Source: Candidatus Coproplasma stercoripullorum
GTDB taxonomy: Bacteria; Bacillota; Clostridia; Christensenellales; Borkfalkiaceae
Reading direction: 5' to 3'
Assembly (NCBI GenBank): GCA_018712405.1
Contig: DVHB01000075.1
Span: forward strand, 1-36,457
DNA length: 36,457 nucleotides
This document shows positions 9,048 to 33,173 of this stretch, one piece after another; the first letter of the stretch is position 1, and each line of letters opens with the position of its first letter. The notes beneath the pieces are model-generated. The model had not been told where the DNA came from, did no database searches, and worked only from the letters and a program-made list of their open reading frames with translations. A program made the translations under genes and the position numbers.

Positions 9048-9100
9048 TCGGGCCGCATATATGGCCAAACTAATGAGGTTAATGCTGTTATAACAATAAG

Positions 9101-9159
9101 CCGCCCGCGCGCCCTGCCTTCCGTTAATTGGAGACGGGCGCGCGGGCGGGTTTTATTTT
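9101..9159 (+). terminator. Terminator of the GNAT gene
   Basis: Perfect 14-bp GC-only stem (9101-9114 with 9136-9149) with a 21-nt loop, followed by GTTTTATTTT. Confidence 0.85.
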
Positions 9160-9189
9160 ACACAACATTATATAGGCTCCACTTTTTAA

Positions 9190-9347
9190 GGACGAAGCCA
9201 ACATTTCTCCAAACAATGGACACCCATTGTTTGGGTTGGGTGAGATAAGTGAGCGCAAAGTAGAAGGCACGAACGGTGACCGAGCGCGGCGGCGTTTCAC
9301 CTTACGCCGCGCGAGACGCCGTCACAGGCAAAGAATTAGACCGTGAC
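9190..9347. repeat. Structured repeat Y, copy 1
   Basis: Intergenic element without ORF. From 5': GGACGAA (9190-9196); CCAAC/GTTGG clamp (9198-9202 with 9235-9239) around an 11-bp perfect hairpin (9209-9219 with 9224-9234, loop ACAC); GGTGACCGA (9275-9283); an 8-bp stem GCGCGGCG/CGCCGCGC (9284-9291 with 9305-9312); GAGACGCC; then a GTCAC/GTGAC hairpin (9321-9347). The same order of conserved words and hairpins returns at 32839-32969 with different stem sequences, and begins again at 36426. Confidence 0.7.
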
Positions 9348-31212: not shown

Positions 31213-31318
31213 TGCGGCATGAGCAGAGGAAGTCAGCGCGGTGGCCCGCGCGTTAAAACTTACTCTGCGGCTCATAAAAATCTACGCATTAAAAATTTCA
31301 GAAATACTCATGCCGAAA
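31213..31318. repeat. Nested inverted repeats upstream of uxaB
   Basis: CGGCATGAG (31215-31223 area) is inverted as CTCATGCCG (31308-31315 area). Inside, an ATGAG-CAGAG / CTCTG..CTCAT arm pair encloses a GCGCGG/CCGCGC hairpin (about 31236-31252). The CATGAG arm can pair in two ways, so alternative folds are possible. It follows module ZW copy 1 on the minus strand. Confidence 0.5.
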
Positions 31319-31417
31319 AAGCGCAAGGCGGAATTTACTTTCGCCGTTAAGCGCTTTTACGACCTTTTATCTCCCTCACGGAAAAAGATTTTGCCACAGG
31401 CAAAAGATTTTTCGTGA
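31317..31417 (-). repeat. Structured repeat ZW, copy 1 (minus orientation)
   Basis: Read on the minus strand: a 42-bp near-palindrome TCACGAAAAATCTTTTGCC, 3 nt, GGCAAAATCTTTTTCCGTGA (31376-31417), then stem AAAAGCGC/GCGCTTTT (31317-31324 with 31351-31358) around the conserved interior CTTAACGGC..GAA..TAAATTC..GCCTT. It ends 2 nt before the stop codon of the second ATPase gene and may also serve as its terminator. The arms of the 42-mer are identical to copy 2. Confidence 0.75.
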
Positions 31418-31419
31418 AC

Positions 31420-32535
31420 TCAATGGCGAACGATATCTGACTCAACCGCCAGCTCCGTCTCCTTATCATACAGATACGCCGCCTTATAGGGCACGACGAA
31501 TGTGCACTCCGAGCCTCTTGCGGGAGTATCGTGAGGGTTGACCTTGAGTATTACATTTTTGCCGTCTATGTTGGCATATACGTTGGTTACGTCGCCGAGA
31601 AGTTCGGTGAGTTCGACCATGGCGGTGAATTTATAGCCCTCGGGCGCATCTTCGCCATCTTTTACGAGTTTTATGCCCTCGGGCCTGAACGCAAATACCA
31701 CCTCTTTTCCTTCGAGCGAGGCTACGTCTTTAACTATGGGAGCAATGTCGACAACGTTGTCCTCATCCTCCTCGGTGACCAGTTTTCCATCCTCCACTTT
31801 GCCGTTCAGGAAATTCATGGGAGGCTCGCCGATGAAGCCCGCCACAAAGAGGTTGCGGGGATAGAAATACAGTTCAAACGGGGTGCCTACCTGCTGTATG
31901 ACGCCCAGTTTCATAACTACTATCCTGTCGGACATGGTCATGGCCTCGGTCTGGTCGTGAGTAACGTAAATAGTCGTGGCGCCGATGCCGCGGTGGATCT
32001 GCTTTATCTCAGAACGCATGGTAACGCGCTGCTTTGCGTCGAGGTTGGATAAAGGCTCGTCCATGAGGAAGATATTAACCTTTCTGATGAGCGCGCGGCC
32101 TACCGCTACGCGCTGCTGCTGGCCGCCGGAGAGCTGGCGGGGGAACCTTTCGAGATAGTCGGTGAGGCCGAGAATCTTTGCGGTCGCCTGGACCTTCTCT
32201 TCGATGATATCTGCGTCGATTCCCTCGAGCATGAGGCCGAAGGCGAGATTTTCGTACACGGTGAGGTGCGGATAGAGCGCGTACGACTGGAATACCATCG
32301 CAATGCCCCTCTCTTTGGAGGTCATCTGGTTGGCGAGCTTACCGTCTATGTAAAATTCGCCCGAAGATATCTCTTCCAGTCCCGCGATCATGCGCAGCGT
32401 CGTAGACTTGCCGCAGCCGGACGAGCCGACGAGGCAGATAAATTCGCCGTCGTTTATCTCGAGGTTGAAGTCGTGCACGGCGTGGAAACCGTTCGGATAA
32501 ACTTTGTTTACGTCTTTTAAGATGAGATGTGACAT
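31420..32535 (-). CDS. ABC transporter ATPase, UgpC/MsmX type (2)
   Basis: 371-residue carbohydrate-importer ATPase, clearly a paralogue of the one at 15601. Walker A GSSGCGKST (37-45), Q-loop VFQSYALYPHLTVYENLAF, signature LSGGQQQRVAVGRA, Walker B IFLMDEPLSNLD, H-loop YVTHDQTEA, and a C-terminal TOBE domain (VVFAFRPEGIKLV). AGGGG lies 9 nt before the ATG. Unlike the first ATPase it has no permease or binding-protein neighbour, so it may be a general MsmX-like ATPase that serves several importers. The gene is bracketed by inverted copies of the same 42-bp repeat. Confidence 0.94.
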   Translation of the reverse strand: MSHLILKDVNKVYPNGFHAVHDFNLEINDGEFICLVGSSGCGKSTTLRMIAGLEEISSGEFYIDGKLANQMTSKERGIAMVFQSYALYPHLTVYENLAFGLMLEGIDADIIEEKVQATAKILGLTDYLERFPRQLSGGQQQRVAVGRALIRKVNIFLMDEPLSNLDAKQRVTMRSEIKQIHRGIGATTIYVTHDQTEAMTMSDRIVVMKLGVIQQVGTPFELYFYPRNLFVAGFIGEPPMNFLNGKVEDGKLVTEEDEDNVVDIAPIVKDVASLEGKEVVFAFRPEGIKLVKDGEDAPEGYKFTAMVELTELLGDVTNVYANIDGKNVILKVNPHDTPARGSECTFVVPYKAAYLYDKETELAVESDIVRH

Positions 32536-32558
32536 TATTATTTTCCCCTATACACTTT

Positions 32559-32659
32559 TCACGAAAAATCTTTTGCCTACGGCAAAATCTTTTTCCGTGA
32601 GATTTTTATTTTGTCGTGGAAGTACTTAACGGCTGAAGTAAATTCAGCCTTGTACTTCC
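32559..32659 (+). repeat. Structured repeat ZW, copy 2
   Basis: 42-bp near-palindrome (32559-32600), arms identical to copy 1 and differing from it only in the 3-nt loop, then stem GGAAGTAC/GTACTTCC (32618-32625 with 32652-32659) enclosing TTAAC, GGCTGAA/TTCAGCC (32631-32637 with 32643-32649) and TT. It begins 24 nt upstream of the second ATPase start codon, in opposite orientation to copy 1. Confidence 0.75.
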
Positions 32660-32684
32660 TCGGCATTATTGATTTTACATTTAT

Positions 32685-32788
32685 TCACGAAAAATCTTTG
32701 CCGGTGACGCAAATATTTTTCCGTGAGATGAGGAGCCAGCTCCTCTGTCTGCGATTTTTAAAGGCTCACCTTTTATATAATCGCAGAC
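32685..32788 (+). repeat. Structured repeat ZW, copy 3 (divergent)
   Basis: Palindrome part at 32685-32726 (TCACGAAAAATCTTTG...TTTTTCCGTGA), then a GAGGAGC/GCTCCTC hairpin (32730-32745) and a 10-bp stem GTCTGCGATT/AATCGCAGAC (32747-32756 with 32779-32788) around an AAAGG-CTCA-CCTTT hairpin. The stem sequences differ wholly from copies 1 and 2. Confidence 0.6.
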
Positions 32789-32795
32789 ATTCACC

Positions 32796-32828
32796 TTTGC
32801 TGAGGCTGCTGCCTCAGCAAATTGGGTC
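32796..32828 (+). repeat. 11-bp hairpin with CAAATTGGGTC word
   Basis: Perfect stem TTTGCTGAGGC/GCCTCAGCAAA (32796-32806 with 32811-32821) whose 3' arm runs into CAAATTGGGTC (32818-32828). The same word returns at 33185-33195 and, inverted, at 36341-36351, each time beside hairpins. Confidence 0.6.
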
Positions 32829-32838
32829 TTGCAGCACA

Positions 32839-32969
32839 GGACGAATGAGGCATTTCATAGCACAATGGACACCCATTGTGCGTGGCGAAATGAGATGAAC
32901 AAGCGCATAAGCAAAAGCGCTTGCGGTGACCGAGCCGCCATGCCATTACTTTAATGGCGGCGAGACACC
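32839..32969 (+). repeat. Structured repeat Y, copy 2
   Basis: GGACGAA (32839-32845); CATTTC/GAAATG clamp (32851-32856 with 32887-32892); hairpin GCACAATGG-ACAC-CCATTGTGC (32860-32868 with 32873-32881); CAAGCGC/GCGCTTG (32900-32906 with 32917-32923); GGTGACCGA (32925-32933); stem GCCGCCAT/ATGGCGGC (32934-32941 with 32954-32961); GAGACACC. Same plan as copy 1 at 9190, with compensatory stem changes. Confidence 0.7.
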
Positions 32970-33017
32970 CTGCTTGCAACGTAAGTATTTTGAAATATGT
33001 TCACGCAAATCGCCCTG

Positions 33018-33059
33018 CCTCCCATTTTAGGGGAGGTGCCGCATAGCGGCGGAGGGGTT
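33018..33059. repeat. REP-like double hairpin
   Basis: CCTCCC/GGGAGG (33018-33023 with 33031-33036) and GCCGC/GCGGC (33038-33042 with 33046-33050), ending in GGAGGGGTT. This arrangement is a familiar MITE- or REP-like intergenic element in gut Clostridia; a related hairpin lies at 9416-9437. Confidence 0.6.
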
Positions 33060-33063
33060 CTCT

Positions 33064-33140
33064 GCGCAAAAATCTTTGCCGTGAGATTTATAATAAGGCC
33101 ATAACAAGGCTTAACGGCCGAACTAAATTCGCCCTTGCCT
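33064..33140 (+). repeat. Structured repeat ZW, copy 4 (partial)
   Basis: Only the right half of the palindrome part is left (GCAAAAATCTTTGCCGTGAG, 33065-33084), then AAGGC, TTAACGGCCGAA, CTAAA, TTCGCCCTT, GCCT (33106-33140). Outer pairing AGGC/GCCT; inner stem with one mismatch. Confidence 0.6.
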
Positions 33141-33173
33141 CTCTTCTGCCGTTTCCCTGCGGGAGACATCTGC

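Follow-up and report, generated by a model that had tools for sequence, protein, structure and literature searches.

A family of small non-coding DNA elements, each made of two dissimilar hairpins and an AT-rich tail, was found only in the Candidatus Coproplasma group. It is probably a genus-specific, non-autonomous mobile DNA whose variable hairpin arms are maintained at the DNA level. The family was recognized in a stretch of 36,457 nucleotides (hereafter the window), which is contig C17 of a 1.70-Mb genome (G000; 82% complete, 130 contigs).

Architecture of the element and its copies in the window

The element is about 110-125 bp long and consists of hairpin 1, a linker, hairpin 2 and the tail. 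Hairpin 1 is bounded by TTCAC (5') and GTGAG (3'); initially described as a palindrome, it is an imperfect one that keeps a conserved internal TC/TC mismatch (GA/GA on the opposite strand). Beyond a linker of ~10-15 nt, the 5' half of hairpin 2 runs through a clamp (TGTCG-T), a variable arm of 7-9 nt (~8), TTAAC and a 7-bp inner stem, and its 3' half through the loop NTAAA, the returning inner stem, TT, the matching arm and T-CGGCA. The unpaired bases of aligned copies are conserved in fixed geometry: TTAAC, TAAA and TT are on average 95% conserved between random copies and 80-100% conserved at orthologous sites. Aligned copies start at TTCAC and finish in the AT-rich tail, and neighbouring elements abut exactly, tail to TTCAC. 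A terminal GTAG tag is absent from these ends, and so are terminal inverted repeats, the 5' TTCACG and the 3' WATTATTTTNAAWTT not being inverted copies of each other. Folding energies favour the forward strand slightly for hairpin 2 and the reverse strand for hairpin 1, which gives no clear strand call.

The first-pass annotation counted four copies in the window, of which two are intact (A and B) and one is damaged (C; Table 1). The one placed at 32685 possesses hairpin 1 and lacks the TTAAC core, and the arms ascribed to it are those of the middle hairpin in a separate family of longer elements (family 2), which has further copies elsewhere in this genome. In both intact copies, hairpin 1 is indeed joined to a second hairpin with the conserved interior, and the outer arms, different in the two copies, pair over all 8 bp. 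Hairpin 1 of copy A lies 23 nt upstream of the start of a minus-strand MalK-like ABC gene, and hairpin 2 of the same copy has the conserved TTAAC/TT internal loop and the inner stem GGCTGAA/TTCAGCC. The copy reported near 33064 is present as copy C, with an interrupted hairpin 1 and pairing at only 4-5 of 8 arm positions.

Table 1. Hairpin elements and related modules located in the window
Feature	Position	Strand	Remarks
Copy A, whole	32558-32665	+	intact
Copy A, hairpin 1	32558-32601	+	TTCACG..CGTGAG
Copy A, hairpin 2	32612-32665	+	clamp TGTCG/CGGCA; arms GGAAGTAC/GTACTTCC
Copy A, AT-rich tail	32666-32683	+	TTCAC of the next element follows directly
Copy B, whole	31311-31418	-	intact
Copy B, hairpin 1	31375-31418	-	starts 1 nt past the TGA stop of the ABC gene (31420-32535)
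Copy B, hairpin 2	31311-31364	-	arms AAAAGCGC/GCGCTTTT
Copy C, whole	33000-33150	+	damaged
Copy C, hairpin 1	33000-33085	+	split by another repeat
Copy C, hairpin 2	33097-33150	+	arms partly decayed, AACAAGGC/GCCTCTCT
Family 2, hairpin 1	32684-32727	+	third copy of the first-pass annotation
Family 2, variable-arm hairpin	32747-32788	+	arms GTCTGCGATT/AATCGCAGAC
Nested module	32840-32885	+	TTTCATAG..GACACC hairpin; also in long composite elements of relatives
Third hairpin module	31226-31265	-	arm-TTAACGCGCGGGCC..GCGCT-arm'; layout as in hairpin 2

Arm pairing exceeds chance

Copies were searched for by sequence pattern and by covariance model. The core pattern has 17 matches in the 1.70-Mb genome compared with 0 for the reversed pattern, and the covariance model finds 24-39 there, depending on the cut-off. 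In an alignment of 13 copies, 88.5% of cells are paired, 41 cells show double changes (12.8 when shuffled), and pairing falls sharply when the partner is shifted by one column. Collecting copies by model biases the set towards paired arms; a second test therefore used copies fetched by the conserved core without regard to their arms, 43 of them with the clamp and 28 distinct arm pairs among these. Their arm positions are 89.7% Watson-Crick, compared with 58.3 +/- 2.9% after the arms were shuffled and a maximum of 67.4% in 2000 shuffles. Arm pairing therefore goes well beyond chance. Copies with unpaired arms form a minority and are decayed or belong to other families; core-only copies with 4-5 pairs come mostly from the other family, whose arm is a constant 4-bp GCGC, together with a few decayed ones. 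The conserved core with variable paired arms, as first noted in the window, recurs across 116 parsed copies from many genomes, a set that was chosen and scored partly by pairing.

Distribution and mobility

Matches are present in 21 of 37 genomes of the Candidatus Coproplasma group, with up to 44 copies per genome and with tandem arrays that have a period of 114-123 nt. Rich in the element are G030, G002, G016 and G206, whereas G004, G008, G009, G011 and G013 are free of it. A survey of the order with strict filters (297 genomes) placed the element in only one of 125 genera. Matches to the exact core in named genomes all fall in assemblies of uncultured Clostridia or Candidatus Coproplasma, apart from one Fibrobacter-labelled contig (L121) whose match has unpaired arms and is probably due to chance, and IMG/VR viral contigs have none.

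The element is mobile, being dispersed, arrayed in tandem, and present or absent at orthologous sites. After a gene whose product ends in DYINGRFG* (site L011), G000 carries the element, G030 a degenerate copy and G016 a family-2 element; many other genomes have no element there, and several of them carry an ordinary terminator instead. At a second site (L009), G000 has the present family (family 1), G002 and G016 have family 2, and other genomes are empty. The intergenic DNA of the species compared is too diverged for a junction-level view of these empty sites, so that a target-site duplication is not definable. In the G030 copy (L253), the internal loop has been lost and a perfect AAAAACGCAAGTC..GACTTGCGTTTTTTT hairpin followed by a T-run resembles an intrinsic terminator.

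Arms were also compared in 44 cross-species orthologous pairs, which are not independent of one another and have both flanks aligned at 69-91% identity. In 16 of the 44 the arms are nearly identical, with hairpin 2 in most cases better preserved than the flanking sequence; in 19 the arms are no more alike than those of random copies, and the remaining 9 are intermediate. This division into two classes points more to exchange of entire copies, or to several insertions at one site, than to slow compensation.

Position relative to genes

Whichever way a copy is oriented, hairpin 1 is the end nearer the gene. A gene that stops ahead of hairpin 1 was located for 52 copies, and in 38 of them the stop codon is 0-9 nt away (median 5 nt). 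Next to divergently read genes hairpin 1 typically lies 10-28 nt from the start codon, that is, at the ribosome-binding site. Distances to genes on the hairpin 2 side are broad because further modules follow. Copies have no net preference for orientation, with 73 in tandem, 18 divergent and 13 convergent relative to genes. Elements also occur immediately upstream of an rpmJ (L36)-like ribosomal gene (L050 and L055) and directly upstream of conserved genes in several species (L056, L057 with three tandem copies, L060 and L218). The hairpins next to stop codons are likely to act as transcription terminators, which would make insertion there tolerable. Terminator-like calls in the window number 6, compared with 3.5 +/- 2.1 expected.

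Maintenance of the arms as DNA or as RNA

Covariation is usually taken as proof of RNA structure, and the element could be read as a cis-regulatory or small RNA whose stems covary through selected folding, with the complementary strand as the folded one. Compensation in RNA by way of G-U pairs would predict an excess of G-U and more double transitions than double transversions. In the 116-copy set, with its partial selection for pairing, arm mismatches (57 distinct arm types) comprise 9 G-T, 12 A-C and 14 others without G-U preference on either strand, and 81 double transversions compare with 46 double transitions; pairing kept at the DNA level is thus favoured over RNA compensation. The inner stem is strand-asymmetric, its mismatches amounting to 15 A-C and 1 G-T distinct types. 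Such a bias would suit folded single-stranded DNA or an RNA of the complementary strand and counts against the folded-DNA mobile element, but clamp wobble points to the strand opposite that implied by the inner stem. Fixed geometry, conserved unpaired bases, and a hairpin 2 that at many orthologous sites is more conserved than the coding flanks are all as expected of an RNA; however, arms often swap wholesale at orthologous sites and copies face both ways relative to genes. Rfam returned 0 matches on the window at the gathering cut-off and, at E<=1 on 18 element-bearing loci, no match that recurs across copies, in agreement with the first-pass remark that no familiar class was matched. The structured-RNA part of that description is weakened by the arm data, and we regard it as unlikely. 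Outside the element, at L292:1795-1992 (+), a T-box leader was matched below threshold (48.9 bits; gathering cut-off 93).

Template switching during replication, a documented alternative, can extend stems and produce changes that look compensatory (PMC8794818), and the elements might be repeat debris whose arms are matched by this process alone, free of recognition or function. The mismatch spectrum, which resembles unselected single mutations, is compatible with such neutral upkeep, and the perfect inverted repeat of G030 is the outcome expected from arm recopying. Recopying of arms alone does not, however, explain the conservation of the unpaired TTAAC, TAAA and TT, nor a hairpin 2 that is often better conserved than the flanking genes, and only one copy was seen to have lost its internal loop. 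Neutral upkeep is therefore quite improbable as the full account. The family is large and natural, and in it strong covariation occurs together with a DNA-like spectrum of mismatches and the replacement of entire copies; it is a useful test case for telling RNA selection from palindrome recopying.

Candidate mobilizing enzymes and proposed mode of movement

No gene for a transposase, an integrase or a reverse transcriptase parallels copy number. Genes for Y1 transposases are absent from the high-copy genomes G002, G016 and G021, and those that occur elsewhere have no element beside them; a RAYT/Y1 link was rejected. A reverse transcriptase was likewise discarded (no correlation with copy number; none in G000, G002 or G016), as was a tyrosine recombinase, which shows no correlation and at E<=1e-10 is missing from the 82%-complete G000 and represented once in G002 (34 copies). 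The first-pass comparison to recombination sites is supported as to mobility, given the empty orthologous sites and tandem arrays, but not as to a linked recombinase. The lack of a copy-number-tracking Y1 transposase, reverse transcriptase or tyrosine recombinase counts against the folded-DNA mobile element.

Integron attC sites follow a folded-shape logic in which geometry and unpaired bases are retained even where the sequence of the stem varies, and they are laid out with conserved paired ends and a variable interior. Folded single-strand sites of this type, used by a tyrosine recombinase, are a very improbable explanation: the element shares their fixed geometry, sequence-tolerant stem and conserved unpaired bases, and occurs in tandem arrays, but its zones are inverted (variable arm outside, conserved interior), its arrays of 114-123 nt spacing hold no cassette genes between copies, no integron integrase was seen, and tyrosine recombinases are as scarce as given above.

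Under the preferred reading of a mobile folded DNA, an enzyme of the host, or one acting in trans, would move or copy the element in folded form, recognizing it by its conserved internal loop and stem geometry and not by the sequence of the arms. The arms would stay complementary through processes acting on the DNA itself, namely recognition of the folded hairpin, recopying of one arm from the other through template switching in replication, or both, and whole copies would sometimes be exchanged for another subfamily at the same site. A more specific proposal, which we advance only tentatively and consider doubtful, is that the elements are mobile terminators of a new class. Each would be a folded DNA served by a dedicated mobilizing enzyme; it would insert just behind stop codons, bring a terminator with it, and be recognized by its asymmetric TTAAC/TT loop, with the stem sequence free to differ. 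Hairpin 2, hairpin 3 and the long composites, as modules that share this loop, would then be sister substrates. If such gene-end targeting is active, it would offer mobile DNA a harmless route through small genomes, in which copies take up places next to stop codons and act there as terminators.

Relationship to known repeats

Among the nearest known repeats are REP sequences, palindromes tagged with GTAG and CGTC (PMC3733652), and REPINs (PMC3116915). The present element is likewise a palindromic, high-copy intergenic repeat, and it resembles REP, BIME and REPIN sequences in being short, taxon-restricted and modular, in its tens of copies often near gene ends, and in stems that vary with complementary changes. 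Unlike REP, it lacks the GTAG tag, combines two unlike hairpins in a total of about 110-125 bp, carries a structured interior of 24 nt where those repeats have a small loop, and has no RAYT beside its copies or tracking their number. It shares with BOX and other small mobile or MITE-like repeats (PMC2229807) a modular, non-coding, structured, dispersed and occasionally tandem character; unlike these, it has variable arms in a fixed frame, with no Rfam or sequence relation found, and unlike MITEs it has no recognizable terminal inverted repeat; a target duplication is not recognizable between intergenic regions as diverged as these. The element is thus REP/BOX-like in behaviour, yet it fails the tests that define REP (GTAG tag, RAYT) and MITEs (terminal inverted repeat), and it is best filed as an unusual new variant of REP/BOX-like small mobile hairpin repeats.

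Related hairpin modules and other repeats

Family 2 (window positions 32684-32999; L038-L046 and L066) is a longer relative whose paired arms again differ by copy. It begins with hairpin 1, a GGAGCC/GGCTCC hairpin and a variable-arm hairpin with a TTAA..GCCC..TTATATA core, and ends with TTCACC/GGTGAG and a core hairpin with constant GCGC arms. The third hairpin module lies downstream of hairpin 2 and has variable arms and a TTAAC/TA internal loop (L008, L037, L072 and L171-L178). The nested module, of the form TTTCATAG-arm-GACACC-arm'-CG, sits inside outer variable arms (L282-L301; window positions 32840-32885 and 9189-9230), and near-identical copies of it terminate contigs of its own genome. 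The autonomous element considered behind these contig-end repeats proved to be another non-coding module. In G002, four ~260-bp tandem units, each with a terminator-like hairpin and repeated sequence resembling a tRNA 3' end, adjoin a tRNA-Lys-like gene (L291; G002:C4:230115-230925). The window further contains, at 9080-9170, a 35-nt inverted repeat with a GC-rich centre, 77% complementarity and a 21-nt spacer.
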